Shown here piece by piece: positions 4,801 to 24,036 of a DNA stretch of 24,036 nucleotides. Source of the DNA: a virus; the IMG/VR virus record IMGVR_UViG_3300046096_000571, positions 1 through 24,036 of that record; one strand, 5' to 3'. Under the pieces are notes generated by a model that was not told where the DNA came from, did no database searches, and saw only the letters and a list, made by a program, of their open reading frames with translations. A program made the translations under genes and the position numbers. Positions within the stretch are counted from its first letter, which is position 1, and every line of letters starts with the position of its first letter.

Positions 4801-4915
4801 TGAGTTGTACATTCTGCTGAGCATCGTAGAGGTTCGATCCAACTTCCCCCATATATTTGTTATATGAGGAGAGTCCTGATTTTGCGGTGTTGAAGATATT
4901 TTCAAAGAGATTCAT
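1892..4915 (-). CDS. Giant ejection-type virion protein with two C-terminal ADP-ribosyltransferase-like domains
   Basis: A complete 1007-residue protein with about 36 TGA-encoded glycines. Residues 1 to about 480 are helix-rich and resemble phage internal/ejection proteins: Gln-rich helices, an Ala/Pro/Val-rich hydrophobic segment near 120-210, and a LREINRETQLNRLL stretch. Residues about 510-620 are a Ser/Pro/Lys/Thr-rich linker. A first ART-like fold spans about 660-785, with VFYKGIS (K701 where the NAD-binding Arg is expected), a Ser-rich strand at 727-730 and EKE at 765-767. A second spans about 845-1000, with IRTYT and INKMLRE helices, VYRGL (R897), YTSTT (S925) and EEEILF (E969, E971), i.e. 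a full R-S-ExE signature. ExE usually indicates arginine-directed transfer. The start at 4915 was chosen because an earlier in-frame ATG (5032) would overlap the upstream gene by 107 nt. An injected effector role is inferred from T4 Alt. Confidence 0.8.
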
Positions 4916-4925
4916 TTTTAGAGTA

Positions 4926-7598: not shown

Positions 7599-8565
7599 CG
7601 TTAGATTGGTTAGATTCTATTTCTTCGATTTCCTTTTCGATTTGTTCCTGTATTTGTTTCTCTATCTCATCCGCCTCGAAGTCTATATTTTTCTCTATGA
7701 GCTTCTCTATTTCGTCCGCCTCATTCTCTATCATCTTGTCTGTTTTGTCTTGCCTATCAGCGAGTTTTGATACATTTTCGTCTATTTTCTTGGTCTTTTG
7801 CCTCACAAGATTTCTCGTTGTGATATTGTCTTCTTTTATTTCTTTTGTTTTTCTGATTATGTCAGAGCAAACCTCTGTTTCTACTTCTTTTATTGTATCA
7901 ATAATGTTCTCTTCTGCAAGTTTATTTTGAGACACAATCTCATTAAGCTCTTCGGTATAATCATGTGCATTTTCTAGAGTCATCACTTTTTCGTGAGTTT
8001 CCTTGAGATACTTTTTGTCTATTGCATCGAGTCATACATTTCTTACAAATCCGCCACCTGTAGAGTTTTCGAGAGAGAATAGCTTGTCGTGTTCTTCTGT
8101 TGTGAGTCCTGCACTTTCTGTAAGTGTTCTATTAGAATACGCCCATATCTCTGCTGGAGTTGCACCTGATCCTCCACTGCCACCTCATCCTCCGCCTGTC
8201 GATACTGTGATTGCTTGTACTGGCTGTTGATAATTTATCCGTACAGTGTATGCCCCTGTCGTATTGTTAAAAGGATCACCTCATCAATTCACAAGAAGGA
8301 TCCCATCATTTACAGATAGTGTGTGATTTGCTTCTTGAGGCTTGAGTCTCCATCCGTTCATAAGAAAAGCATAGATAGGAATACTCGTACCTGCTGACAC
8401 ATCAATATCGTTTCCCCCTACTTGCTGAAAAGCTGGGAGATATTTGCTATTGTCAGATGTGAGGAACCAGTCTACCCATCGACTCCATAGATCACGAACT
8501 CACAACGAGGTTGTCCCCGTTGTGAGTGTGATTACTTTAGATGGTCAATCAAATGTTAGTGCCAT
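7549..8565 (-). CDS. Virion structural protein: beta N-domain, Gly linker, long coiled coil
   Basis: A complete 338-residue protein. Residues 1 to about 125 form a beta-rich domain with LWSRWVDWFLTSD, a YAFLMNGWRLKPQEANHTL segment and a YTVRINYQQPVQAITV segment, a combination I associate with phage appendage/structural proteins. A Gly-rich linker follows (about 128-140), partly TGA-coded. Residues about 185-320 are highly charged and coiled-coil forming, with EADEIEKLIEKN and EADEIEKQIQEQ repeats, and the tail is Asn/Gly-rich. It resembles the protein just upstream in its N-terminal part. An attachment plus trimeric stalk role is inferred. It ends in TAG and the next gene starts inside its 3' end in another frame. 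Confidence 0.8.
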
Positions 8566-8567
8566 AA

Positions 8568-9917
8568 TTAAATTAAGTAAGCTCGATCTTGCTCTGCTGT
8601 AAGTGTGATATTCTGACCTGTAGCTCTGGTAATTGTATAGTTTGTGACTACTGGTTTTGCACTTCCTGCGTTTCCTGCCACTACTGTAACGAGAGCATCA
8701 GTTGCTGGTGTTCGTCCGCCCTGAGTATTGCTATCATAGGCGAATGTGAATGCGATAGACGATCCTGATATAGTTCCCTGGATATCAGCTGGAGTTGCAT
8801 CTTGTACCGTGATAGCACCTGTGAGTCCGTAGTCCGCTGATCCCGCGAGATCCGTGAAGTACATTCTGTAGTATCCTGTACCTCCTGCTGTCAATACTGA
8901 GTTGAAATTGAGGTTTCCTGTAGCGGTAAATGGTTCTGTACGCTGTACGCCTGTCTGATCCGTGAAAACGAGGCGGTTGATATCATTGGCATCATAGTTG
9001 TCGATATACACGCCTGTAGTGGTGATGAGCGTATCACCTACAAAGTTGAGGAGGGCAGCTGCGGTTTTTCCTATGACTGATCCTGCCCCTGCATCGATAT
9101 CTGTAGCCTGTCGAAGCTGGTATTGTACCTTGGTATAGATATCCTCAGCACTCGCACCGTTACCTGCAATGATTACACGAAAGTTGCGCGATACTCCACC
9201 GATTGTACGAGCCTGATCTGTAGCATAGTATGTGATCGTGATTCCGTTGTATGGAGCACCTGTCATCGATCCATCGACCGCCTGGATTTTTAGATCATCC
9301 TCATTACCGAGAAGCATATTGACTGTGTATGCTCCTGTTGCTGTCTGACCAGTATCTGAGAGAACTGAGTCGTCATACTTTTTACCATACTCACGGACAT
9401 ACCCCTTGAAGTAGGTTCGAGAATCAAAGTTTCCATTGGACGCATCCCCAAATACCTGGATACCTTCATTCACTTCATCATCGAATGTGAAGTTTGCAGA
9501 AGCTCCGCCATTGACCTTTTGATAGTAGAGCTGTGCCCCTGTATTCACATCACCGAGTGATACGATACCTACATACTGACGGTTGAGGACACCTGCTGAC
9601 GAGAACTCTGACCATCCTCCATCTCGGAGCATCTGGCGAGTTGCATCATTAGCTGGCTTCCATCCCGAGAATGTCGATCCATCTGTACCGAATTGGTACT
9701 GTCCTGATTTGGCATCGATTGTATACATTGGAAACTCGAACTTGTTGTATGCTGAGGTTGTCCAGAGATCCACAAACTTCGAGTAGAGAGCCTGGATCGT
9801 GACACCGTCTTTTGCAACAAGCGTACCTGCTACATTGAGTGTGAAGGTAGAGAGTGCGGTATCAAGGGTGAGCTCGACACCGACATCAATGTCATCTGGG
9901 TCTATGATCTTTGCCAT
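8568..9917 (-). CDS. Large virion structural protein without any TGA codon
   Basis: A complete 449-residue protein open from ATG to TAA even under the standard code, because all of its many glycines use GGN. It is Thr/Gly/Ala/Asp-rich and predicted mainly beta. The N-terminal 100 residues contain LYSKFVDLWTTSAYNKFEF and GWKPANDATRQMLRDGGW, resembling phage tail or appendage structural proteins and the N-terminal domain of the next gene. The middle and C-terminal parts look like repeated beta-sandwich domains. Avoidance of the recoded codon is shared only with the major capsid protein among the large genes, suggesting an abundant virion component. The exact role (tail, decoration or fibre) is not determined. 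Confidence 0.8.
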   Translation of the reverse strand: MAKIIDPDDIDVGVELTLDTALSTFTLNVAGTLVAKDGVTIQALYSKFVDLWTTSAYNKFEFPMYTIDAKSGQYQFGTDGSTFSGWKPANDATRQMLRDGGWSEFSSAGVLNRQYVGIVSLGDVNTGAQLYYQKVNGGASANFTFDDEVNEGIQVFGDASNGNFDSRTYFKGYVREYGKKYDDSVLSDTGQTATGAYTVNMLLGNEDDLKIQAVDGSMTGAPYNGITITYYATDQARTIGGVSRNFRVIIAGNGASAEDIYTKVQYQLRQATDIDAGAGSVIGKTAAALLNFVGDTLITTTGVYIDNYDANDINRLVFTDQTGVQRTEPFTATGNLNFNSVLTAGGTGYYRMYFTDLAGSADYGLTGAITVQDATPADIQGTISGSSIAFTFAYDSNTQGGRTPATDALVTVVAGNAGSAKPVVTNYTITRATGQNITLTAEQDRAYLI

Positions 9918-9929
9918 AAAATGAAGTGG

Positions 9930-12488
9930 TTATAAGAGATAATTGCGATCGACAACCTGGGCTATTGGAACAGATCAGTCTGTACTTCCGAGTATATAGT
10001 TGCGTATATAGAATGGTACATATCCTGCCTTGAACACGCCTATATCTATGGTTTCTGGGGTCTCATAGACATATCCATAAGTAGTTCCTGCGTTCGAGTC
10101 TACATTGACTCGCTCTGTTTCTGTTCCTGCGGATAGGATCACTATATCAGATCCTGTGACAAGTCAATTAAGTGTGAGAGTCACTACATCGAGAGGATAC
10201 TGAAAGTCCTGTGCTGTCGTGGTACTAACGGTTGTCAGATAGACTGAGGTGATTGCTGTCGCGTTCGTGGTTCCTGTCGTGATCTTGAGTCTGAGCTTGA
10301 ATCCGAGACTTGCACTGATCCCTGTGATCCCACTCAGAGCGGTTCCGAGAGTTGTCGCGGTATAATTAGAGGTTGTCATGGTACTCCATCCATTCCCATC
10401 ATTTTTGTTGATCGAGTACTCATAGGTATAGTTTGTCGCTGTACCACCTGCCATCACGAGAGCTGAATTGGCGAATGCAGTGTGTCACTTCATAAATACA
10501 GGCATCTCGAATGTCACTGTATGTCCGATCACAGGCATATAGAGACCACCTGCCGAGGTGAAGGCAGACCCATTGGCGAGAGTTACCTGTGAAGTGGTAG
10601 TTGCTGTTGGCTCGTTCATCAGTATCGCGATACGCCCTGCTGTAGTCGAGGTGAATCCATCTCGCCAATGTGTTCCATAGACTGATACCTGAGCAGTGAG
10701 AGCACCTGTCCCTCCCATACCTTTTCTCTGCATATTCAGTACTGCCATTACATCCACCGCATCCGCATAGTCACCAAATACATTTTCCTCGGTGAACCTC
10801 GTACACGAGTTATCTGCTGTCATTATTCCAGTTCTCGTTGTCGCGACATACACTCGCTGGATTTTCCAATCCGCACACGCTGTACCTGCTGTATAGATGA
10901 GACCTGTATTGTTCACGGATCCCATACTCATAGGGGCAACACGAGTTCCGATATTTCTGAGCTTGATATTTGCACATCCTGTAGCACCGATGAGGAGGGC
11001 GGTATATGGTTGTGTATTCGTGACTGGTATAGTGAGTCCTGAGAATGTCGAGTTGAGTGTATTCGATGAGAGGTTGAACACATACATGGCGTAGGTAGTG
11101 ACAGTTGTTCCTGAGACACAGTCGCAGTAGATCGTATCTGTGACGATGATACCGTTACAGGTGATGAACTGCATAGATCCCTGTATGACGGTAGGATTCG
11201 TCCAAGTACAGCTCACCGCACGAGTAACTGAGAGTGAGTGTGAAGTCGCGATACCACGAATCACTCCTTGCCTATATGTATCACGAACAAAAGTGAATCA
11301 CTCGATATCCTGGTAGGTATTGGTGACACCTACTGCGGCTCAAGAGGTTTTTTGCCATACACAATCTGTGAAAGTACCTCCTGCGAAACAGTATGTCATC
11401 GTGAGAGGATTGGTGACGAGGGCAGTAGTTGGCTTATTCCCTACTCACACCTTGGTGAATACCATGGGTGTCGCGATCTCCGATAGGAGAATAGCATCCA
11501 CGAATCCTGAGTTCGATACATTCACCTGATATGCTTGAGCACACGATAGATACCACGCCATATTACACTTATCGATATTCACCACTCCTCCACCTGTAGT
11601 CGTGAAGTCATAGCGAGTCGCGATAGTAGCATTCGGGATCACATTGGCAGTTCGAGCCGCAGTGGTACAGTTCTCAAAAAATATATTACCCACGACTACC
11701 TTGAGTCCAGTAACAGGGGTATATCCATTAGTAGCTGCACCCGAGTTTCCTATTCTCACGAGTCCAGTATTATCTATCCATACTACCTTCCCACGAGTCG
11801 CTTCTATACCTGTAGTCGTATTTACTCCATTATTTGGATAGAACTCATAGTTTCCACTTCCGACTGTCTTCTCTATGAAAACTCCTGCGACATATCGAAG
11901 GAGTCAATTATTTGGGATCTGCATTGTCTGATTACTCGTGCCATTCGTTGTTCCGACTTCATACCATGCACCTGTAATATTGAATGTACCAAGGCGGTTG
12001 GCATTTATTGTAGAGGCTTCATCTCAGACGAGCTCGATCCACCCTATACGACCAGCATCTGATGCAGTAGCAGTGATACCTGTGAGTAACCCTGCTGAAT
12101 ATGTTCATGTCTTTTGTTTTACACGGATGAATCCAGATACTGGCATAGCCGCACCTGTAGCAGTCGAGGCAGAAGTGAGTGAGGCATGTACGCCTATAAG
12201 TTTCCCTGATCCTGATCCATTCGTTATAACAGTATTCCATGCAGGAACTGTACCTGCGCCTACTGTATATGGGATCATCCATATGCCTGTACCATCTATA
12301 TTAACAATACCGCCAAGTGAGGCAGATAGAGTGATTGTACCGAGAGTTGTTGAAGTGGTCTGATTTGTACCTACACGAGAGTCCTGATCGATAGTCAATG
12401 TACCACCATTCACATTATAAAGATCCCCACCAGCCTTAGCAGTAAGAGCATCTATATTTTGTGAGGCTGTAATTGTAAAAGTAGCCAT
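9930..12488 (-). CDS. Large tail spike/fibre-like structural protein
   Basis: A complete 852-residue protein that the standard code would split into about ten pieces at TGA. It is strongly Thr/Ala/Gly/Val/Asn-rich, low in charge and shows alternating hydrophobic beta strands through most of its length (short NIxxC/NIxxN rungs at about 300-560), compatible with a beta-helix or stacked beta architecture. The C-terminus ends with GYVPFYIRNYILGS and PIAQVVDRNY, a pattern I associate with large phage structural proteins. About nine glycines out of many use TGA. It is the first gene after promoter P4, its ATG lying 11 nt from the -10 box. A spike, fibre or baseplate-like role is inferred from composition and position. 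Confidence 0.8.
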
Positions 12489-12499
12489 TGATTGTATTT

Positions 12500-12527
12500 A
12501 GTATATGAGATTCTATCTCATTATCAA
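12500..12527 (-). promoter_or_regulatory. Late promoter P4
   Basis: On the minus strand: TTGATA, 16-bp spacer ATGAGATAGAATCTCA, TATACT. The dyad is kept in altered form (ATGAGAT and ATCTCAT arms, 3-nt centre). The -35 box starts one base after the TAA of the upstream gene. The ATG of the 852-residue gene is 11 nt downstream of the -10 box, leaving a leader of only about 4-5 nt. Confidence 0.85.
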
Positions 12528-12528
12528 G

Positions 12529-12840
12529 TTAATTTTGTGATTCAAATAATTCTTTCATTTCTGCTACGCATTCATTAAAAGCCTCGACTTCATCTCAGCG
12601 AAGCGGACATCTTTTGAGGAACTCAGCAAGTTTTGCTATAGTAGTGTTTTTCATAATTATATTTTTTAGATTTCTTAGTTCTGTTTTTTCTATCTCTATC
12701 CTAGCTCTTATATTAAACTCCTCTTCTATATTTTCCACAATTCATTCAGCATCAAGATCATTAGAAACTTTTTTACTGATTGCATTGAGCTCTTTTAGTT
12801 GTTCATATGTAGGATTTATTGGTTTTGTTATATCAAACAT
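12529..12840 (-). CDS. Small charged coiled-coil protein
   Basis: A complete 103-residue protein with two in-frame TGA codons (Gly). The sequence is rich in Glu, Lys, Leu and Asn, and largely helical: a TYEQLKELNAISKKV helix, a central EEEFNIRARIEIEKTELRNL helix and a C-terminal helix around FNECVAEMKELFES. Its ATG overlaps the TAA of the fibre-like gene by one base (TAATG), and it is the last gene before promoter P4. I do not recognise a family. A small helical protein directly behind a fibre gene could be a fibre-assembly chaperone, but that is only positional reasoning. Confidence 0.75.
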
Positions 12841-13910
12841 TATACGATGAGTACAGTATAGTTAGATCAATCTATTTTTAATGAGTATCATTGGCAATTA
12901 TAGTTTGCTGATCCACCACTTGTTGTGGATACAAATCGTCCTGTTGTGAACAAATATGAATTATTGCTCGAAACAACCTCTCTCCCCTGATGCCTAAAAG
13001 TAGATCAAGCTATATATGCTGATCATCCTATATCTAAATTTCCTGTTGCCGCTAACAGTCATCCTGCGACAAATCATCCTGTAGAATATAAAACATCAGT
13101 TGTTCATCCATAAGATGCTGTATATGTATTATCTCATAATGCAGATACTGATGAACCTGATGATTTAAAAAAAGCAAGAGTTGGAGTTGCTGCATTAGCA
13201 AGCTGTATTCTTACTACTCCAGAACTATCTCTTCCAAGGAATCCATTTGATGCCATTTCTGATCGTGCACCACTTGTTGCTGTTTGTAATGTAGCACCTG
13301 TTATTATACCAGTTGCTGTTATATTCTGTGCAAATAGGTTTGTAACATCTATTTTAGATGCTTGTATTGTACCAGCGAGGATATTATTCGAGGTGATTGT
13401 ATTTGCTGCAATCTCATTTGCCGTAATAGTCCCAGCAGCTATGTTATCTGCGTTGATGAATGTCTGACTTCCAGCTCCTCCGAACACTTGAAATTGCGCA
13501 TCTTTTCCTGTTACCGTGAGGTTTGCTACACACACAAGTATGCGAGTAGGTCATACACTGTTATTTGCTGTTGTAGTGACTTGCAGTGCTGTCACGGATA
13601 TTGCAGTATCTAGATATATATAAGTCACCGTAGTGAGTGTTGTAGATGCTCCAGTGATACTATATGATGATCCATTTGATAGAGTGAGTGTACCAGATGA
13701 CCAAGTGACATTATTATATCCAGTAGACGACCAAGTGAGATTGTTTACCCATCCACGGATTCCTCATACTATTCCATTATTTACATCAGATACAAAAGAA
13801 GAGAGTCCAGTTATAGATCTCAGTTGCTGTTGTTCAGCATTTAGTCCTGGTCTTTTTGTAAAAACAGGGACAAATTCTGATATACTTATGTTGTCACTTT
13901 TTAGTTTCAT
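12840..13910 (-). CDS. Fibre-like / tail tip-associated structural protein
   Basis: A complete 356-residue protein. The N-terminal third is Ser/Thr/Gly/Asn-rich with WVNNLTWSS and NVTWSSGTLTLSNG strands. The middle (about 155-205) has the repeat typical of phage central tail fibres and tip proteins: GTITANEIAANTITSNNI, then LAGTIQASKIDVTNLF and ITATGIITGATLQT. The C-terminal third resembles a fibre knob or endosialidase-like stalk, with many TGA-coded glycines (GGxxAGG words). Its start overlaps the end of the upstream gene by 10 nt. It probably forms a trimeric fibre joined to the tail machinery. The recognition target is unknown. Confidence 0.75.
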
Positions 13911-15334
13911 TTCCTTATATTAGCGTTTATCATAAGATCAAATACTTTTGGTGCTTTTCTATAAAATCCAGGATTTCCTGAGTATTCATCTCCAGCCTTT
14001 ATCTCCAAGCTAACTCTCGAATAGTTAAAATCAGAGTCATATCCAGCCGTACTTAGTGCCTTTGCTATCTCACTTGGTCATATCCTGAGTGTACCATACT
14101 TTAGATTCCCCAGCGAGTCTGTTATATCTCCATCCGTTACCTTCCCTATGGATATTTCTAGTGATTCACTTATGAGTTGCATAGACTCAGTCTGCAAAAA
14201 TAGTTCTACCTCCTGTTTTGTTGTTCAATTTATGTATGTTCCCCAGTCAAATAGGTATCCGAGTTCTATATAGAGATCATTTTTCTTGTCTTTGTAGGTT
14301 GTTCCGTCAATTGGACGAAGATATATCTTATTTATCCGTTTTGTAGATCCTGATAAGATATTTATATTTGATACTGTGCTATTCTGACATAGTACTTTAT
14401 CATTTGATATATCGACTATCGTATGCGTTGCGTTGTTGCTTGTGAGTATTTTACTTCTTCCAGGCTTTCTATTCCCTAGATTGTACACACGAGTACCATC
14501 AGAGAATATCAGTCATTTATCCCATCCGCATTTTGCATCTTCTGATAGTGGTATATAGCGTATGAGTTGAGATTGCCCACCTTGATACTGATTTACTCAC
14601 TCAGAACTCAGCCAATATAGACTGTAGCCTTCCCCGATAGCATCAAAACACTCTTCTCGTAGTGCCGGAGTCTTCCCAACTATATTGTAGTTTCCACCAG
14701 TAAAATTGATTTCGTATATAAAAGTATTGCCCTGATTTATTGCTACTACTATTGTAGAGTCAAAAGAGTACGAGTATATGTGCTTTATAACACTTCCAGG
14801 CATAAATGTCACAAATTCTGCATTTACTACATTGTTCACAGTATCGAGATAGTATACTTTGTTGTCCTTTGCAAAAAGAAGATTTGTTACATGCCATCCA
14901 ACCGCTGTTGTTGTCCCAGCTGGATAGCCAGATGATATAGTAGATTGTAGTGTTGTTCCTGTATAATCAGTCTTTTTTATGCTCGTTGATCCGAAAAAGT
15001 AGTTGATCTGTGATATTCCGTATCCGTATGCTTCCATGTGAGTGATTCCTGATCCAATAGTTCCAGTTATGCTATTTAATAGATAGTTGTATGTGAAATC
15101 TGTATTACCACGAAAAGTACCCTGATCGGTATCCTTTACCCATAGCATAGGGGAAGCACTTGTGACAAGTCAAGATGCTATATATGCCTCAGATGCTGTT
15201 GCATATCGATCATTAAGCCTTACCTCTATTCACTCCATATCCTGTACGGAGTTCTCAGTACCAACAAAATCATCATCAGATATTCCACCTCAGAACGAAT
15301 TATATGTCTTTGATATGTCGTATTTTGATTCCAT
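13901..15334 (-). CDS. Candidate tail nozzle / beta-propeller-like tail protein
   Basis: A complete 477-residue protein, read through TGA at several Gly positions (for example NSFGGGISD near the N-terminus). It consists of repeated beta strands rich in Gly, Thr, Tyr and Ile with blade-like words: SQINYFFGS, NLLFAKDNKVYYLDT, IVVAINQGNTFIYEI and GEGYSLYWLSS, about 40-50 residues apart. This is consistent with a beta-propeller such as podovirus nozzle proteins (T7 gp12 or P22 gp10 type). It directly follows the adaptor gene (one-base TAATG overlap), which is the expected place for a nozzle or stopper. The identification rests on pattern and synteny, not on a clear family motif. Confidence 0.7.
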
Positions 15335-16026
15335 TAGCGAAATTGTTTTTGAATATAAGAACCTTGTTGTACGAATCCATCTCCACGAACCGATAGGTCA
15401 TTGATTGCGTCTCGGAGTCTTTTATCAAAGAGATTTTCTTGTGCGATAGCTTCATTGAGTGGCTTGCCGAGATATTCGAGTCAAAATGATACCATTCCGT
15501 CCTCGATCAGCTCATTTATACGCTCAGGAACTTGCACCTTGTCCGCCGTATCGCTCGTTAGAAGTGATGGAGGCTGTATGATAGCTTCTATGAACAATCA
15601 CGCTGTCACGGCTTCTGTAGAGGCTGGAAACACCCATATAGAGTTATCCTGTATGTAGAAAAAAGGGTCTGACTTGTTCCAATTCGCATAATAGTCCTTT
15701 CCATAAGTGAGAGTAGCAGGATTTGCTTCACGACAAGGAGTATAATATGTATCTGTAGCCGAATATTTTATAAATACACGCTTTGTACGAGTTATTGCCT
15801 CTACTCCAATAGTATTGACTGTATATTCTACTTGTCCTATGACTGTATCAGACTTTCCTTGCTCATAAAAATACTCATCATCGAGCATTCGCATCTTAGC
15901 AATTACTTTCTTATAAGATCTGTTGTAGTGTTTTATTCCTACTGTGTCAGGATAGCTCGTGAGAGTCGAGTGTAGACGATCCTCACGAACATTTGCGATT
16001 GCTTGGATTGGTGTTGTGTTTGCCAT
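15334..16026 (-). CDS. Head-tail adaptor/connector protein
   Basis: A complete 230-residue protein. The N-terminal region is helical (IQAIANVREDRLHS, then YKKVIAKMRMLDDEYF). A central beta part (about 65-160) has EYTVNTIGVEAITRTKRVFIKY and IWVFPAST strands, where the latter reads like the IxxxP segment of phage adaptor proteins. The C-terminus is helical again (INELIEDGMV, then NLFDKRLRDAINDLSVR). This helical-beta-helical layout, the length and the position between capsid and tail genes fit a head-tail adaptor that docks under the portal. Two glycines use TGA. The start is at an ATG preceded by AAAAAATAACT, with no Shine-Dalgarno sequence. Confidence 0.75.
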
Positions 16027-16028
16027 AG

Positions 16029-16223
16029 TTATTTTTTAAGAGCGTATCATCCTTTTATAGCAGAGCGAAGATCACGCAATACTACTTTCCTTTTTTCCTC
16101 GGTGAAGTCCTTTACTTGTGCAACACCAGTATCTCATCCTATACTATAGAAAACCTCCAGTACATCTGTAGGCTTTCATCCTAGTTCACAAATTCTAGTA
16201 TGGATTTTATTGAATCTTAGCAT
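16029..16223 (-). CDS. Small protein between capsid and adaptor genes
   Basis: A 64-residue protein that begins inside the end of the preceding gene (17-nt overlap, different frame) and ends two bases before the adaptor start. It has three TGA-coded glycines, each directly after a GGA (GG pairs: ELGGKP, SIGGDT and KGGYALKK). It contains one long amphipathic helix, VKDFTEEKRKVVLRDLRSAI. I do not recognise a family. Head-completion or connector accessory proteins are often found here, but no motif shows that. Confidence 0.7.
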
Positions 16224-16401
16224 TCTTTTTAGTTTTAGTTGGTTCTACTACTTTCTCGACCTTATCGAGTGACTCGAATCCCATATTTGCAAAAATGGTG
16301 GCGACCTCCTCAATATCAGTAGAGATAACACCAGTTTCATCTGCTACAAAACGGAATCAGTTACGATTTACTACACGACCAGCTGTTGTTTGAAAATTCA
16401 T
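16207..16401 (-). CDS. Small protein downstream of the major capsid gene
   Basis: A 64-residue protein, first gene of the transcription unit from promoter P3, with its ATG 20 nt past the -10 box. It shows a short beta hairpin (NGFRFVADETGVIST, with the Gly coded by TGA) followed by a helix (EEVATIFANMGFESL) and a Lys-rich tail. Tiny proteins with this GVI...E...L...GF layout commonly sit beside phage capsid genes, but their role is unknown. The 3' end overlaps the next start by 17 nt. Confidence 0.7.
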
Positions 16402-16421
16402 ATTTGAAAAGTTATATTTCC

Positions 16422-16449
16422 ATTATATGAGAATCTGTATCATAATCAA
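16422..16449 (-). promoter_or_regulatory. Late promoter P3
   Basis: On the minus strand: TTGATT, 16-bp spacer ATGATACAGATTCTCA, TATAAT (a perfect -10 consensus). It lies immediately after the capsid terminator and is the only copy not abutting a stop codon. Only the -10-proximal half of the dyad is intact, as in P5. Confidence 0.87.
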
Positions 16450-16464
16450 GTATATTTTTAGACA

Positions 16465-16488
16465 CAAAAAATCCCTCCGAAGAGGGAC
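16465..16488 (-). terminator. Rho-independent terminator after the major capsid gene
   Basis: On the minus strand a 6-bp GC-rich stem (TCCCTC / GAGGGA) closes a TTCG tetraloop and is followed by six T (TTTTTTGTG). It begins 8 nt after the capsid TAA. It separates the scaffold-capsid unit from the next promoter, P3, which starts 15 nt further on. Confidence 0.92.
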
Positions 16489-16495
16489 TTTATGA

Positions 16496-17380
16496 TTACG
16501 CATTGTAATGAATGGCAATTGCCTTTGCATTCTCTCCAAAGATCTTCATTCCCCAGATAATCTGAGCAAGAACATTTGTATAGAATCCGTCTACACCTTC
16601 TGTAACCTTTGTGTCTGATACCTGAAGAACTGCATTAACAGAACCTTCAGCCATCATAATCATTTCCTTACTAGCATCAAGTGCGGTAGTAACATATACA
16701 GGAACTCCACCGATCATACCAATGTATCCTGTCTTTACAACCTGAAAAGCATCGTTAGAACCTGAAGTGAACTGTGTAGCCTGAAGAAGGAGTCCTTCGA
16801 CATCTGTAGAAACAAAGAGTTTCATGTTTGATACCTTCACATTCTGCTTTCGGAGTGCTGTACGCATTGCGATAACTCGTGCGTAGATATTTCCAGAAGT
16901 TGCTGCAGTTGGGGCTCCAGAGTCAATCTTATTTCCTTCTGGGATATCTGCAACCTGAGTGACAAGGATCTGATTGACGACCTGGTCATCAAGGAGAGTT
17001 CCCATACCTTCAGAGAAGCGAGATGCAACCTTTTGCTCAAGAGAAAGATTAGACTGTACTTCCTGAATGTTCGGGAGAGTAACACGCTTCTCAGTGTACT
17101 TATCGATGATAAGGTTCTCAAGAGTGATAGCGAAGTCAGAAGCAGCGATTGCTCCTCCAGGTCCTACACCTACATCACTATTCGTGAGGTCACCTGCACC
17201 AGTAATAGTAGAGGCAGTAAATGTAAGAGTAGGGAGAGTCTGTACGCGAACTGTGTCTCCACGTTGCTTGAGTTCTCCTTCGTATGCACGGTTTGTATGT
17301 GCGAGGAATACGGTATCACGATCGAGGTTACGGATAACTTCGTTCGAGAAAATAGCGGGGGTAATAATAGTATTAGCCAT
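16496..17380 (-). CDS. Major capsid protein, P22-coat-like (HK97 fold)
   Basis: A complete 294-residue protein. The N-terminus (MANTIITPAIFSNEVIRNL, then AHTNRAYEGELKQRGDTVRV) matches the opening of P22-type coat proteins, in which a helix precedes the GDTVxI strand. The middle has a LIIDKYTEKRVTLPNIQEVQ strand and a spine-like helix, and the C-terminus has IGMIGGVPVYVTTAL and a final beta layer ending FGENAKAIAIHYNA. The family has the HK97 fold and assembles with a scaffold, whose gene lies just upstream. No in-frame TGA is used although the protein has many glycines. A strong terminator follows. No capsid maturation protease gene is visible, as in P22. Confidence 0.9.
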   Translation of the reverse strand: MANTIITPAIFSNEVIRNLDRDTVFLAHTNRAYEGELKQRGDTVRVQTLPTLTFTASTITGAGDLTNSDVGVGPGGAIAASDFAITLENLIIDKYTEKRVTLPNIQEVQSNLSLEQKVASRFSEGMGTLLDDQVVNQILVTQVADIPEGNKIDSGAPTAATSGNIYARVIAMRTALRKQNVKVSNMKLFVSTDVEGLLLQATQFTSGSNDAFQVVKTGYIGMIGGVPVYVTTALDASKEMIMMAEGSVNAVLQVSDTKVTEGVDGFYTNVLAQIIWGMKIFGENAKAIAIHYNA

Positions 17381-17426
17381 AATAGTTTAGTTTAAATAGT
17401 TAAGTTTTGACTATCTGGCTTCCTAT

Positions 17427-17945
17427 CTATCTCATAGTGACTTTTCCTGAGTCCATTAGATCACGAATACGATTGTATTCTTTTGGATTATTCTTTGCGA
17501 TTTTCTCCAGTTCAGCCTTTGTAACAGTTGTCTTCTGTGAGTTAGACTCTCAGTCAGATAATCCGAGTGAGTTTGTTTTATCACGATTCTGCTTTGCTTT
17601 GTCTGAATTCAAGACAAGAGTTTTAGCTTCTTCAAGTGAAAGCCCTTTCTTTGTACTGTATTCAGATAATTCTGAACGATACTCAGATAACTCAGGGTTT
17701 TTATCCAAGAACTTTTCCATTGCATAGTCTGCTTTGGTCATTATGTCGTTGGATTCTGATGATTTGCCTTCGAGTTCTTTGAGCTTTCGCTTTTGTTCTA
17801 CGAGGGTTTTTTCGGCTTTTTCTCTTCGTGCCTTTTCTCGAAAATAGTCATCTTCGGTAAGTTTCACTGGAGTATCATCAGTTGTGTCATTGTCCTCTGT
17901 AACATCAGTTACATCGTCAATAACTTCGTCAGTTGCTTCTGTCAT
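17427..17945 (-). CDS. Capsid scaffold protein
   Basis: A complete 172-residue, highly charged protein. The N-terminal 30 residues are very acidic (Asp/Glu/Thr-rich), followed by a helix DYFREKARREKAEKTL with coiled-coil continuation to about residue 60. The centre has KFLDKNPELSEYRSELSEY, and the C-terminus is a basic helical segment (AELEKIAKNNPKEYNRIRD) of the kind that binds coat subunits. This composition, and the place directly before the capsid gene, are typical of phage scaffolding proteins. One Gly is coded by TGA, and the gene ends in TAG. It is preceded by a structured leader of about 95 nt after promoter P2. Confidence 0.85.
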
Positions 17946-18002
17946 AGCATATTGGGTTAACAGATAATAAAAGAAATTTTGTAGAGTGTTCTCGAACTCC
18001 AG

Positions 18003-18024
18003 CCTACCATCCGTAGATAGTAGA
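18003..18024 (-). promoter_or_regulatory. Stable 5'-leader hairpin of the scaffold-capsid mRNA
   Basis: On the minus strand TCTACTATC pairs with GATGGTAGG (9 bp, two G-T pairs) around a TACG loop of the stable UNCG tetraloop class. It starts about 10 nt from the predicted 5' end of the P2 transcript and is not followed by a T-run, so it is not a terminator. A 5' stem-loop of this kind may protect the mRNA or tune translation. A weaker second hairpin (GGAGT / ACTCT) follows. The remaining leader to 17946 holds nothing else I can identify apart from a 17-codon ORF of doubtful meaning. Confidence 0.6.
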
Positions 18025-18040
18025 ATTGGAATCTAAAACC

Positions 18041-18068
18041 AGTATATGAGAATTATTCTCATAATCAA
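18041..18068 (-). promoter_or_regulatory. Late promoter P2
   Basis: On the minus strand: TTGATT, 16-bp spacer, TATACT. The spacer together with the first base of the -10 box forms a perfect 17-bp palindrome, ATGAGAATAATTCTCAT. The core is identical to P1. The -35 box starts one base after the TAA of the upstream gene. It drives scaffold and capsid. Confidence 0.88.
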
Positions 18069-18069
18069 G

Positions 18070-18321
18070 TTATACTTTAGGTCTTGCAACTCCGAGAGTG
18101 TTATGATTCACGAGGTCAAACACTCACTTTCTTGCTCTGATATACATACTCGCCTCTTGTACTTTCTTTTGTGTCTCTACACTAGTGATATCGAAGTCAG
18201 GAGATTGCATAACTTCACGATTGAAGTCTGCAACGAACTCCTCTTCGAGCTTCTTGAGTATGAGGAATCAATGGTGCTTCTTGAGGCTTTCGAGATGTCC
18301 TTTTTCTTCGGTAGTTAGCAT
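18070..18321 (-). CDS. Small helical protein between portal and scaffold
   Basis: An 83-residue protein coupled to the portal gene by a TAATG overlap. It is mostly helical and charged (EEKGHLESLKKHHGFLILKKLEEEFVADFN), followed by a short Val/Lys/Arg-rich C-terminus (VQEASMYIRARKGVFDLVNH). Two TGA codons are read as Gly. I do not recognise the family. Its place suggests a head-assembly accessory. Its stop codon lies one base before the -35 box of promoter P2. Confidence 0.75.
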
Positions 18322-20165
18322 TATTGGATTGTTGGATTATTATTCTGATTCTGAATAACTGAGTTCATCGCCTGTGCCGTGCTTCCTCAATTAGCTTCTC
18401 ACATCTCTGTAGGAACTTGTGGGATAGTTGCAATGATCAGCTCGTCTATTCGCTTGATGATAGCTTGCTTCGCTGGAGTATCGAGAGCTTGTGAGTAGAT
18501 TGCACGGAGTGTTTCTAGGTCTTGATTTGGCAACGGATCTGCGAGTTGCTCGTTATTATTGAGAAGTTCGAGATTACCCATTGCTTCTCGTTCGTCTACA
18601 CTTGGTGGGATATACTGCATTGGATTTGCATCTACGATACCTGAGTATTCTATACCTGCACGCATCCAGCTATTGAGTCAGTATCCAGGCTTCATATTCG
18701 GCATTATTGTACCTGAGAGTGCAACCCATGTAGCGAATGACTCTTTGTTTTGTGCTTGTACTTCCTCAGCTGATACAATATAGATATTTATCATTCCACC
18801 TGATAGGAACTCTCTCTTGCGAAGTGATCGAGAGAATGCTTGTCACTTGTCGAATAGTGCGATATTCTTTGTTGATTTTTCTCACATATTCAGCTCATAT
18901 GATTTGAATATATCTTCCCACATTCTCTGATATGATTCCTGATAGTTACTAGAGATATATCTATGGATCTTATTACCGTTCTTATCAAGGATCTGTATCT
19001 CTGCCTTTGTCTGACTTCCACTTGGAGATTGTCCGAATGATGGAGCCTGAGAACCTGATGTATCGCTTGCATCCTGTCTGATCTCTTGCTTCATGGCACC
19101 TACTCGTCATCCTGATTTATTCAGAGGGATTTCTATGAGTGCTGGTTCATTGCCGAGGTCTGAGAAGTTGCCCTCAAAAGTTATTCCACCTGCTTTTTCC
19201 TTATTGAATGCGTTTATATCTATACCGAGCTTTTGATTTACGATCTTATCGCTTCCGAGTTCTTCTATACGAATACCTGCAAGCTCTAGGTTTACGAGTT
19301 CATCGTATGTATTTTGAAAGTTTATAACTTCATCGAGGAGAGCGAATCCAAAGAATGACTTATACTTTGGCTTTCGTCTGTGAAGTTGGATAGGATATTT
19401 GATTTTCTCAGGATTAGCTACCTCATCTTCGTCAAGTGCCTCAAGTTCTTCTTGTCGGAGCAAGTGAGTCATTGTATGATCCCATATTGTCATATACTTC
19501 TTGCCTTCATAACAAGTGAAGTGATAGTATATTGTTGTCATCTCGTCATCCTCTACATACTGGACATTGTTTGCATTAGCTGTAGCCTGTTCTGTCTTGC
19601 GTTGTTCCTCAGATATTCCTGCGAATACCTCATCTCGTGCAGACTTGTTGTAGTATTTGTTGCTCTTTATATAGTCGAGTGTGACTTGCTTCTCAAATCC
19701 TATATATCGCATCTCAGAGTCCTGATAGTTGCGAGGGTCTGGGATGATAGAAAGAGGATCAATTCCCTTTATAACTGGTCGATTTGTCTTATCATCGAAC
19801 TTGTCGATAAAAGTCGCATAAATACCATAGTAGTTGTTGCCATTGATAATATCTCTCTTTATTTGCTTAATCCCCATCTTTCTATAGTCGAACTTTGCTA
19901 CCTTTTCTGCCATCTTTACAATCCCATCTTCGAGGACTCACTTCTCAGATACGAGTTTTATATCGAGATCATCAGTGAGAAAAGTTGCCTCTTCGAGTTG
20001 CATATGCTTGTATGCAAGATTCGACCTGATAAATCCCTCAGGAACATCCTTTAGGATTTCTTTATCGAGGTTTCTTTTTCTATCTCGTTCAGACTGTACA
20101 TATTGGAGTCCTGCATTGTACTCCTTTTGTACCTTATCCCTGAGTCAATCTATATCCTTGATCAT
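18321..20165 (-). CDS. Portal protein
   Basis: A complete 614-residue protein when eight TGA codons are read as Gly. The identification rests on its position after the terminase and on portal-type sequence: an NGNNYYGIYATFIDKF region, then IDPLSIIPDPRNYQDSEMRYIGFEK at about residues 140-165 (split here only as one motif area), a helical stem with NFQNTYDELVNLE near 275-290, and an AMKQEIRQDASDTSG segment after a TGA-coded Gly at about 353. The C-terminal part is Gln/Asn-rich and helical, as in portal barrels. Portals form a dodecameric ring that passes DNA into the capsid and docks the terminase. The ATG is 20 nt from the -10 box of P1, with an A-rich leader and no Shine-Dalgarno sequence. 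Confidence 0.88.
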
Positions 20166-20185
20166 AGTTTGGTGTTATTTATTCC

Positions 20186-20213
20186 AGTATATGAGAATTA
20201 TTCTCATAATCAA
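20186..20213 (-). promoter_or_regulatory. Late promoter P1
   Basis: On the minus strand: TTGATT, 16-bp spacer, TATACT, with the perfect 17-bp palindrome ATGAGAATAATTCTCAT between and touching the boxes (20191-20207). The -35 box starts one base after the terL stop codon. It drives the portal gene. Confidence 0.88.
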
Positions 20214-20214
20214 G

Positions 20215-21705
20215 TTAAAATCTAGGGCGGGCTATTCAGAGAGGTTTTTTCTCAAGATCACCTTTATTTGCGAGATAATCAACTCATTGCGAGAGACAAT
20301 CTATTACATCATCGTGCTTTCAATTAGGAAACTCATAGAGTTGGTCTTCGATTTTACGAGTAAACGACTTATCAGCCATATCTTTTCTCAGATAGATTGC
20401 GTGAAGTGATACCTTTGGCTCCAGGATAAATTTTATTCTATCCTCTTTCTTCATCTTTGGCTTGTAAGTATTAACTATAATATTACGATTGTTCTGTTTT
20501 AAGAATATCCGCAAGTCCTCTATAAATTTTGATTGCTCACGATTGATTGCCACATCTTCCACAACAATACTATTTATTTTGTATCCATCAGCTTGCATCC
20601 GATCATACATCGAAAGGATAGCGTAGAAAGTCTTAGATGGTGCAGAAGTTTCAGCATATCCGTCAAGTTGGTATATGTTTCTGGATATATTATGTATTCA
20701 CATTCCAATTATTACTGCATCATCAGAGCTAGATGATGAAGAAAAAGCAGGATCGACTGAGAGAATACAAGTAAGGTCTCATTTTTTAAGTATTCCATCT
20801 GCTCGCTCGAAGTCAGACTGATTATAGTATTGTATATCCGATAGAGAGAATATGTTACTAGATGAAGCAATCGGATCTTGCTGATATAGTGCTGAGAAGT
20901 CCTTTTTGCTCACATTAGATCGGATCTCTTCAAAATATGTTTCATCCCACTTTCACTCCCAGAGAATTGGATTTCATTTCTCGTCTATAGCTGGTATTTT
21001 TAGAATATCCCACTTATCTCATCAATTTTCTTGTTCTTTTAGTAGGTATCAGGCGAGATCGTTCACATTCCATCGTGTAAGCATCACGATAATAGCCGAG
21101 TCTTGCGATTGTCGGCGTGTATAAAATGTCGAAGTATACCAATCAATTACCCTTTGTTGTGTTGTTGGACTTTCTGCTTCCATTCTATCCTTTGTTGGAT
21201 CATCGATAATCCCGATATCAAAACCCTTACCAGTAAGAGCTCATCATACACCAACGGTATAGACTCATCCACCTTTGCTTGTCTCCCAGTTTCCTCATTC
21301 CTTCTTATCTTTTGATAGTGCAAATGTAGGAAATATGTTTTTGAAATCATTATCCTGGACGACTTGTTTTGCTTTACGACCAAAGTCAGAGGCAAGATCG
21401 GCTCCATAAGAAGAGATTACGAGCTTTCGTTTTGGATCACGACCAAGACACCACATAGGAAAACGAATAGATACAAGCTCACTCTTTCCAGTTCGAGGAG
21501 GACAGAATATCATTAGACGCTTTATATCTCATCTCTCTACTGCCTCGAGCTTGTCGATTATTTGTCTATGGATTCATACTCAATTCTGTTCAGCTATCAT
21601 CTCATATTCTTCTTTTGTGTACTTCGTGAAAAAATCGAGCTTTCTGTAGCTCAATTCTCTCAGTGCGAGTTCTTTTTGTGCTTGTTCCTTTGTTGGTATT
21701 GTCAA
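20215..21705 (-). CDS. terL: Terminase large subunit
   Basis: A complete 496-residue protein and the anchor for the genetic code. The ATPase domain has Walker A CPPRTGKSE (K74), a WETSKGGG / VYTVGVGGALTGKG region (140-161) in which G147, G154 and G155 are TGA codons, Walker B IIDDP (D168, D169) and a motif III area around IIVMLTRWN. The nuclease domain has LSVDPAFSS (D318), VVEDVA (E383) and KHDDVIDC (D465, D466), the acidic residues of the RNase H-like fold. It packages DNA by ATP-driven translocation and cuts concatemers. I chose TTG at 21705 because no ATG exists between the upstream in-frame TAA (21720) and residue 37, and the residues after TTG look coding. Confidence 0.95.
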
Positions 21706-21758
21706 GTTTGTTGTTTTTTAGATAAAACCCCGTGTATTTTGTGCCTTTTTGTTATTTT

Positions 21759-21787
21759 TATAGCTTTTATTACAAAATAAAACTATA
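21759..21787 (-). promoter_or_regulatory. AT-rich hairpin between terS and terL
   Basis: A 12-bp stem (TATAGTTTTATT / AATAAAA-CTATA with one bulged G) and a TTGT loop begin directly after the terS stop. The stem is almost all A-T and no T-run follows, so it is not a normal terminator. It may modulate expression of terL, whose apparent start is TTG 54 nt further on. The rest of the 82-nt gap shows nothing I can name. Confidence 0.45.
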
Positions 21788-22192
21788 TTATACAATATCC
21801 GTCATAGATAATAGCTCAGAAGTTGTCATATCTTTTAGAGAATTTAGTCCTCATTTATCATCAGTGGCAGATCAACGGAATAAAGAGTATCTTGCTGTTG
21901 ATTCTTTTATAACTTGCGATATTTCGACTGTACGCATCTTTTCTACCTCATCCTTATCATTGAGTCGTCTTTCTATTTCTCGTTGTCCTATCGTCAAGAT
22001 AGATAGGTCTGTATCCGTTATACCAATGATCCGATCGTCCTTTTTGCCTTCATGTTCAAGTTTGTTCAACTTATCATTAACATTTCCTAATGATAATCAT
22101 GTCTCATCGGCAATATCTCTTTGACTAGCAAGTGGATTTTCTAGTACAACTTTTGCTACCTTTGCTATGTTTTTTGCCTTATCTGCTCGCAT
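21788..22192 (-). CDS. terS: Terminase small subunit
   Basis: A complete 134-residue protein. The N-terminal half has a helix-turn-helix (SQRDIADETGLSLGNVNDKL at about 24-43, with one Gly coded by TGA) that would bind the packaging site. A charged coiled-coil-like middle follows (REIERRLNDKDEVEKM). The C-terminus has ARYSLFRGSAT and LKDMTTSELL, a pattern typical of small terminases, where this region contacts the large subunit or forms the oligomer. It lies directly upstream of terL. The start has the AATAACTATG context and no Shine-Dalgarno sequence. Confidence 0.85.
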
Positions 22193-22194
22193 AG

Positions 22195-22386
22195 TTATTT
22201 AGTTTTAATGTATTCAATAAAGTATTCTAGTGTCTTGATAGCTTCTTCCTTTGTCATCTCTACTTTTATATAGTAATCACAATGCTCCATGAATTCAACA
22301 TTATCTCATTCTACTGTTATTCAAAATACGTCATCAAGGTATCATTTTGATATGTCGATGTCTCATTCTTTAGTCTTAATTATCAT
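22195..22386 (-). CDS. Small acidic protein upstream of terS
   Basis: A 63-residue acidic protein with four TGA-coded glycines. It consists of short strands (IIKTKEGDIDISKGYL, DVFGITVEGDNVEF) followed by a helix (TKEEAIKTLEYFIEYIK). It ends two bases before the terS start and begins one base after the preceding stop, so it is part of one operon with the terminase. No family recognised. Confidence 0.72.
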
Positions 22387-22387
22387 A

Positions 22388-22735
22388 TTATTTAATTAAG
22401 ATTACCATCTTCCCTTGTTTTCTATCAATCAGGAAATCATATATCATATCCTCAGTATACTCAACTGGAAGATATTTCAAAGCCTCTTTCTTTATAAAGG
22501 CATCTGATCTGTTCTTATTAAATATTGGTGCAGTATGATATCCCCAGTGAGGAATATCATTTGTAAGTTCCTCTATTTTTTTTCATAGATTAGCATTATG
22601 CTCAATATGCTTATCTCTTATATATAACAAATGTCCTACTTTATCTACTTGTTCTTCAAATTGCTTTATATATATTTCGAGATTGATTCTTAATCTCTGC
22701 AGTTCAGATGTTTTTATAAGTGTGTATCAGAACAT
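22388..22735 (-). CDS. Hypothetical helical protein
   Basis: A 115-residue protein with two TGA-coded glycines. The N-terminal half is a long helix (SELQRLRINLEIYIKQFEEQ), with His-containing sequence RDKHIEHNAN after it. The second half includes DIPHWGYHTAPIF and a YLPVEYTEDMIYDFLIDRK segment. Its start follows the sequence TAACTAATAAATT, which recurs upstream of the next gene along. No family recognised. Confidence 0.72.
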
Positions 22736-22741
22736 AATTTA

Positions 22742-23179
22742 TTAGTTAATTTTTAAAAGATTTTCTTTATCTGCCTTATTTAGAAACTCCATGTTCGATA
22801 TCATAATAATGTAACGAATATCACTATCTTTAGTCTTGGATAGATACTCATATACTTTGGTTTGTATTTCGTCAAATGAATATTGTTCTAATCAGTAAAT
22901 GAGTTCTGCTACTGTATAGACTCATCCAAACGCTTCACCCCTCTCCATTGTTGTGTAGTTGAATTTACATGGGAAAAACACATAATCAGGATTTCATATA
23001 ATTTGCTTGAGTGCTTCCTGTTTGGCTAATTCCTCAAGCTCTTTGAGTTTATCTCAGGTAACGATTCATTTTATTGGTGGTACAAGAATAGATCCGACAC
23101 ATAAGATTGGTATAGTATTCATTAAAACTGTATCTCCTTTATATTCGAGGGATCACTGATATTCGTATATTACTTTCAT
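22742..23179 (-). CDS. Hypothetical protein
   Basis: A complete 145-residue protein with five TGA-coded glycines. It starts with a beta-rich part (MKVIYEYQGSLEYKGDTV, then ILCVGSILVPP), followed by a Lys/Glu-rich helix (KLKELEELAKQEALKQI). The C-terminal half contains FFPCKFNYTTMERGEAFGG and a helical end (FDEIQTKVYEYLSKTKDSD). I do not recognise a family. It belongs to the closely spaced small-gene operon that leads into the terminase genes (6 nt gap on either side). Confidence 0.72.
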
Positions 23180-23185
23180 AATTTA

Positions 23186-23365
23186 TTAGTTAGTGATTCT
23201 ATTTTCCAAATTGTCTTGCATTCATCCGAAAGTTCCGTCCCAGAAGATTATCTCTTCTTTATTTGCTACTACTGTAGTGGTTCCATCTTTCATTACTATC
23301 CTATGCTCTTCTCAGTCTATGACTAGAACTGATATGTTTTGTGTGTTTACTATGTAGTTTTTCAT
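23186..23365 (-). CDS. Small hypothetical protein
   Basis: A 59-residue protein with two TGA-coded glycines. It is almost all beta: NYIVNTQNISVLVIDGEEH, RIVMKDGTTTVVANKEEI and IFWDGTF. It looks like a small barrel or SH3-like sandwich. No family recognised. Its start overlaps the preceding small ORF by 16 nt. Confidence 0.65.
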
Positions 23366-23448
23366 ATACTTTGGTTAAGTGATTCTATTTTCTCTATCTC
23401 GATTCTATTCTCTTGAGTATCACGGATGATGAGTCAGTGGTAGAGCAT
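23350..23448 (-). CDS. Very small possible protein
   Basis: A 32-codon ORF from an ATG in TAATG overlap with the preceding gene to TAG. It has two TGA-coded glycines and a charged helical centre (TQENRIEIEKIESLNQSI). The coupling and the lack of any gap suggest it is translated, but its length gives little support. No family recognised. Confidence 0.4.
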
Positions 23449-23774
23449 TACTTGAATCTTTTGGTAAATCAATCACAAATTGTGTTTGCCCATTCTAATG
23501 TTCTCTTCTCTGTAATAGAGAATGTTCCTCAAGCCAACGCTGTTGATACTGATATAAACAGCTCTTTTTCATAAGATTGTTCTTTTTGAGATACATTATT
23601 GTATATATCTAGCATTTCTTGGTTTTCCATTTGTGATATTGCTATCTCTTGGATCATACCTTCAAGTCTCATCATATTCGCTATCATAGCCTCATTATTA
23701 CTCGGGATAAGATTATGGAGTTCTCAGTATGTTTCTATTTGTTCCTTAGAGAATTTTGTGTTTGTTTCTGACAT
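23448..23774 (-). CDS. Hypothetical helical protein
   Basis: A complete 108-residue protein, largely helical and acidic (FSKEQIETYGELHNLIPSN, Met-rich IANMMRLEGMIQEIAISQM, QKEQSYEKELF). A possible short hydrophobic hinge (SVSTALAGG) follows, and the C-terminus ends in TICDGFTKRFK. Three TGA codons are read as Gly. Both ends use one-base TAATG overlaps with the neighbours. No family recognised. Confidence 0.72.
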
Positions 23775-24036
23775 TAGTAAAAAAAGTTAATAAGTGTTTG
23801 AATTGTGACTAATAAAAGTGATAATATGGCAATATTACGATAATTAGATACTTTTTCTTCTAATTCGTGTTTCTTATACATAGCTTCATATTCCTTTGTA
23901 TGGAAGTGCTCTATTATTGCGATAGGCTTTAAGTGCCTACTTATAGTTCCCCTACCGTGTCAGTAATTTTTTGCTATATACCTTTGACTTAAATCCCAAG
24001 TATATAGATCATATATTTCATCTACCTTATCTTGTG
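23774..24036 (-). CDS. GIY-YIG-like endonuclease fragment with C-terminal membrane helix (5' end outside window)
   Basis: The last 86 residues of a protein whose start lies beyond the window. The segment SQRYIAKNYGHGRGTISRHL, then PIAIIEHFHTKEYEAMYKKHELE, resembles the second half of URI/YhbQ-type GIY-YIG nuclease domains (R...H..G.G...TR..P..LV..E.F.TK.EA...E...K). The Gly of NYGHG is a TGA codon. Afterwards come a short charged helix and a hydrophobic C-terminus (IAILSLLLVTIQTLINFFY), probably one membrane helix. The catalytic GIY-YIG half is not visible. A helix-turn-helix reading of the same segment is an alternative. Confidence 0.6.

Follow-up and report, generated by a model that had tools for sequence, protein, structure and literature searches.

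Comparison with described code-25 phages

Phages and prophages that use genetic code 25 have been predicted for Absconditabacteria and Gracilibacteria (PMC10746230), and the tailed phage RSA-ATP1 of the Absconditicoccaceae was reported with the same code (PMC13059738). Code-25 phages of such bacteria are already published, and the DNA analysed here adds one more, a phage lineage in which the reading of UGA as glycine is well supported. We analysed the record IMGVR_UViG_3300046096_000571, a stretch of 24,036 nt that is classed as linear in IMG/VR and is called the window throughout. It is very likely a fragment of a tailed phage in code 25 with UGA as a glycine codon, and its host very likely has the same code, supplies tRNA-Gly(UCA) and lacks release factor 2.

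Like the phages of PMC10746230, the window has dense in-frame TGA codons, genes of tailed phages, an inferred CPR host and a coding density that is higher under code 25. The published phages were linked to their hosts by spacers, whereas no spacer match was found for the window phage. The window further differs from them in that CGA is shown to code for arginine, TGA makes up about one quarter of the glycine codons and the GC content is 0.39. RSA-ATP1 is 39 kb long, similar to the 39.8 kb of the nearest relative of the window, and its portal and TerL genes are readable only if UGA is glycine, as in the window. Compared by its published description, RSA-ATP1 has four tRNAs including a tRNA-Gly(TCA), whereas the window has none. 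The near relative, IMGVR_UViG_3300048691_000157 (39,830 bp), shows the gene order of the window, uses code 25 and is 93%, 98% and 96% identical to it in TerL, the major capsid protein (MCP) and the portal protein, respectively.

Genes of the window and their reading frames

When TGA was read as a sense codon, about 25 tightly packed genes were found, all on the minus strand, whereas most of them were broken up in code 11. The coding density was 0.65 in code 11 and 0.94 with TGA as sense; with TAG or TAA as sense it was about 0.79 and 0.78, respectively. The 25 genes contain 162 in-frame TGA codons and not a single internal TAA or TAG, where about 357 were expected from the off-frame rate. They end with TAA (22 genes) or TAG (3 genes) and never with TGA, leaving TAA and TAG as the only stops. 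TGA accounts for about 26% of the glycine codons in the window and is found in 23 of the 25 genes, the exceptions being the genes at 16496-17380 and 8568-9917. This bears out the initial annotation, in which nearly all genes were said to carry in-frame TGA and yet to stay open up to TAA or TAG. That the TGA codons come from pseudogenes or sequencing errors is practically out of the question, since the absence of TAA and TAG is opposed to it, 37 of the TGA positions are common to an independent contig and no supporting evidence for such an origin was found.

The large terminase gene (20215-21705) starts with TTG, encodes 496 residues with 17 TGA codons and matches PHROG_38 (1.5e-98) and PF03237 (6.8e-18). 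It adjoins a gene for a winged-helix DNA-binding protein at 21788-22192 (3 TGA; PF13412, 1.3e-7), which is possibly the small terminase. The portal gene (18321-20165, 614 aa, TGA at 8 of 40 glycines) was assigned by synteny and homology to code-25 relatives; its weak Pfam match to the SU10 portal (E 5e-4) was below the cut-off. Between the portal and capsid genes lies 17427-17945 (1 TGA), which from this position, kept in the relatives, probably encodes the scaffold protein. The MCP gene follows at 16496-17380 (294 aa, no TGA among 24 glycine codons; PHROG_267, 1.3e-23). Virion genes were also found at 9930-12488 (852 aa, 9 TGA) and 8568-9917 (449 aa, no TGA among 50 glycine codons); the product of the latter is a homologue of the Syn5 structural protein 53. 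The gene at 7549-8565 (338 aa, 6 TGA) is the first of a module common to standard-code phages. An 890 aa protein with a CHAP domain is encoded at 4926-7598 (12 TGA; PF05257, 6.8e-9) and a 1046 aa protein at 1892-5032 (36 TGA), with an ADP-ribosyltransferase-like domain at residues 763-835 (PF01129, 6e-8), which by its position is possibly an internal virion protein. A DUF1353 protein (3 TGA; PF07087, 8.6e-15) is encoded at 158-565.

Assignment of UGA to glycine

The TGA codons of TerL are at residues 42, 44, 59, 137, 147, 154, 155, 219, 228, 229, 244, 251, 309, 336, 462, 474 and 490. When they were set to each of the 20 residues and scored on PHROG profiles, glycine reached 332.4 bits, followed by serine with 320.3, and tryptophan was the lowest with 288.3. 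Glycine was top-scoring on each of the four best profiles (PHROG_38, 4758, 30251 and 5573).

The TGA positions of TerL were then masked and aligned with 12 standard-code homologues. Glycine was the facing residue in 77 of 169 cases, while tryptophan (3), cysteine (2) and arginine (1) were rare; tryptophan or cysteine at these positions would have spoken against glycine. The TGA at residue 219 (21049-21051) faced glycine in all 12 homologues, the one at residue 59 (21529-21531) in 11 and the one at residue 462 (20320-20322) in 10. The initial annotation had relied on residues 147, 154 and 155 as conserved glycines. All three are indeed TGA, and the pair 154 and 155 (21241-21246) faced glycine in 10 and 7 of the 12 homologues, but residue 147 is poorly conserved, with glycine in only 5. 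Judged by these alignments, residues 219, 59 and 462 are stronger evidence for glycine than the three named before. In two virion genes, the close standard-code homologues had glycine at 48 of 70 positions facing TGA and no tryptophan, arginine or cysteine; for seven of the nine TGA codons in 9930-12488, four or all of the 5 standard-code homologues had glycine. Scored over the 29 TGA columns of four genes, glycine obtained +49.1 bits, the next residue, serine, -19.9 and tryptophan -60.9. The same scoring returned the expected residue for 58 of the 62 codons. The portal and CHAP positions, also said to fit glycine, were compared with code-25 relatives only.

A further test was the exchange of codons in the near relative, which shares 93-98% protein identity in the core genes. 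Opposite the TGA codons of the window it had TGA in 37 cases, a GGN codon in 12 and another codon in 3. TGG or CGA, though each is also one base away, was never seen. Profile scores, standard-code homologues and codon exchange, three largely independent tests, all agree, and we conclude that UGA in the window is a sense codon for glycine, as originally proposed.

In code 4, UGA is read as tryptophan, as is known from Mycoplasma and some recoded phages, and this code would leave the reading frames just as open. It is hardly conceivable here: on the top-scoring TerL profile no residue came out lower than tryptophan, which was also far below zero over the 29 columns, and TGA does not exchange with TGG in the near relative. 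In addition, TGG is the normal tryptophan codon of the window (132 bits over 25 columns), which had likewise been expected.

CGA is read as arginine

In Absconditabacteria, CGA and CGG also code for tryptophan (Shulgina & Eddy, PMC8629427). The use of this extended code by the window phage was considered, since UGA as glycine is common to both codes and code-25 phages of Absconditabacteria are common (PMC10746230). For CGG, only 2 columns were informative, which leaves tryptophan some probability. CGA, however, was scored over 17 columns and obtained +39.6 bits as arginine and -43.9 bits as tryptophan; in the near relative, AGA, CGT and CGC are found in its place. The codon is also frequent: the window has 7.8 per 1000 codons, whereas 27 of the 28 code-25 genomes sampled have 0-1.8. 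The extended code is therefore very improbable. Because CGA is arginine, the window uses table 25 proper, with TGG as tryptophan and the remaining codons standard, CGG being judged from its 2 columns only. For the same reason, the Absconditabacteria are the less probable of the two host groups originally proposed. Codons such as CGA can thus tell apart host groups that have code 25 in common.

In the code-25 genomes, CGA was nearly absent from the rpoC loci L019, L024, L030, L031, L033 and L037. Several rpoC loci of genomes titled Gracilibacteria or Patescibacteria had one CGG each, at a tryptophan column, in line with CGG as tryptophan beyond the Absconditabacteria.

A virion module found in phages of different codes

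The three virion genes at 7549-12488 form a module with relatives in standard-code or code-11-compatible contigs (L140-L149). The near relative is without the region 8568-12488, and its other virion genes differ. The protein encoded by 8568-9917 is up to 75% identical to proteins of contigs in which TGA is a stop codon. With one contig, L140, the protein identity reaches 87%; TGA occurs there neither as a stop nor in frame, which fits both codes. These sequence comparisons suggest that virion genes may cross between phages of different codes.

The product of 8568-9917 matches the Syn5 structural protein 53 over its full length with 39% identity. The capsid of Syn5 bears an unusual horn, of which this protein may be a part. 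Recent transfer as the cause of the complete lack of TGA in 8568-9917 was not favoured, since this gene and its nearest relative share only 72% DNA identity and the synonymous sites therefore had time to change.

Host of the phage

The initial annotation had proposed a CPR host of the Gracilibacteria or Absconditabacteria and reliance on a tRNA-Gly(UCA) that is not encoded in the window. ARAGORN indeed found no tRNA in the window, and none was found in the 39.8 kb relative. As the window is a fragment and the relative may be incomplete, a tRNA-Gly(UCA) encoded elsewhere by the phage keeps some probability. Since no phage tRNA was found, we infer that the phage uses the tRNA of its host. The phage would infect a bacterium sharing code 25, whose tRNA-Gly(UCA) would decode the phage UGA codons, the phage bringing no visible decoding machinery of its own. 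Such a host would be without release factor 2, so that UGA would not be a stop there. With this tRNA present and release factor 2 absent, UGA would be just another glycine codon.

Code-25 genomes were collected with the rpoC motif NADFDGDQMAVH, which has TGA at a universal glycine. It matched 28 genomes, all of them with titles consistent with code-25 groups (Gracilibacteria, SR1 and Patescibacteria included). In the 8 code-25 genomes examined for release factor 2, no match was above the cut-off; 7 of them had one weaker match to the profile, most likely release factor 1. The genomes G059 and G007 have a tRNA(UCA) with the glycine identity elements G1:C72, C2:G71, G3:C70 and U73, following the rule given in PMC8629427. 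In G059, this tRNA is nearest to the tRNA-Gly(UCC) of the same genome.

An MCP profile search gave no match in the first 28 code-25 genomes. Among 353 SR1-class genomes, G059 has a 6.2 kb contig (C187) with TerL, portal, scaffold and MCP genes in the order of the window. This contig is TGA-rich, its frames are open only with TGA as sense, and its proteins are 41% (MCP), 36% (portal) and 32% (TerL) identical to those of the window. Homologous genes in the same order are thus found in a genome of the Gracilibacteria/Absconditabacteria type, on a small contig of a metagenome bin that could be mis-binned. In an EF-Tu tree, G059 was placed near the Absconditabacteria side; its tRNA(UCG) looks Arg-type.

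G007, titled Candidatus Gracilibacteria and with a GC content of about 0.4, was the only one of the 28 code-25 genomes that reached the CGA level of the window. It was also the closest of them in synonymous codon usage and has an Arg-type tRNA(UCG). A G007-like host is a lead, taken from small sampled loci. The code, the gene content and the codon usage support the proposed CPR host, whereas its Absconditabacteria half is disfavoured by CGA as arginine. This suggests a host from a Gracilibacteria-type lineage that keeps CGA as arginine.

A search for CRISPR spacers in the DNA of the 353 SR1-class genomes gave only weak, short matches (E 1e-5 or weaker) to positions 4037-24036 of the window, and no repeat arrays were found around the seven window matches that were checked. 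With 20 kb of the near relative, the matches in the 353 genomes fell into an HNH-type gene. No integrated copy or spacer tying the window phage to a host was found in these searches. The near relative carries an HNH/NUMOD-like gene (L008, 3677-4321) that is 65-69% identical in DNA to loci in the code-25 genomes G122 and G019.

Lak and crAss-like phages are known to switch their code with UAG or UGA. The window phage could likewise live in a standard-code host and switch late to UGA as glycine by means of its own tRNA-Gly(UCA). Virion genes predominate in the window, as such a switch would have it, and the code-25 phage RSA-ATP1 has a tRNA-Gly(TCA) (PMC13059738). We regard this as very improbable. 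Neither the window nor its 39.8 kb relative has a tRNA, with the caveat that the genome may be incomplete; TGA is dense in the near relative outside the virion genes too, and it is missing from the very gene that is most typical of late expression, that of the capsid.

Uneven use of TGA among the genes

The share of TGA among the glycine codons of the MCP gene was 0/24 in the window, 0/25 in the near relative, 11/23 in G006, 6/16 in G059, 1/20 in L041 and 4/22 in L042. In G006, the portal gene had 35/36. TGA was depleted in the MCP gene compared with other conserved virion genes in each of the six phages (Fisher p 0.002 to 2e-5), which are related and not fully independent. Capsid genes avoiding TGA were located at 16496-17380 of the window, L009 11145-12026, L010 4818-5699, L041, L042 and L073. 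The depletion was not seen in the two deeper relatives L044 and L045.

As a rule, the genes for EF-Tu and for capsid proteins are highly expressed. In all 27 of 27 code-25 genomes, TGA was lower in EF-Tu than in rpoC (p 1.5e-8), and when counted against GGA alone it was lower in 24 of 27 (p 5e-5). Within the window, the TGA fraction fell with GC3 (rho -0.64, 13 genes). GC explains a part of the low TGA use but was rejected as its only cause, since EF-Tu remained low against GGA alone. More likely than not, selection in code-25 bacteria and their phages purges UGA, as a glycine codon disfavoured in translation, from strongly expressed genes. PMC10746230 suggests that dense TGA aids phage translation in code-25 hosts; the depletion pattern does not fit such efficient translation and points the opposite way. 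In the literature, which was partially covered, no earlier report of TGA depletion in strongly expressed genes was found. The uneven use offers a simple handle on how efficiently a reassigned codon is read.

A TGA-rich gene of the near relative (L008, 4332-5777) encodes a 481 aa protein in which near-identical GGYSAQMS/GGDYAQMS repeats form a long array.
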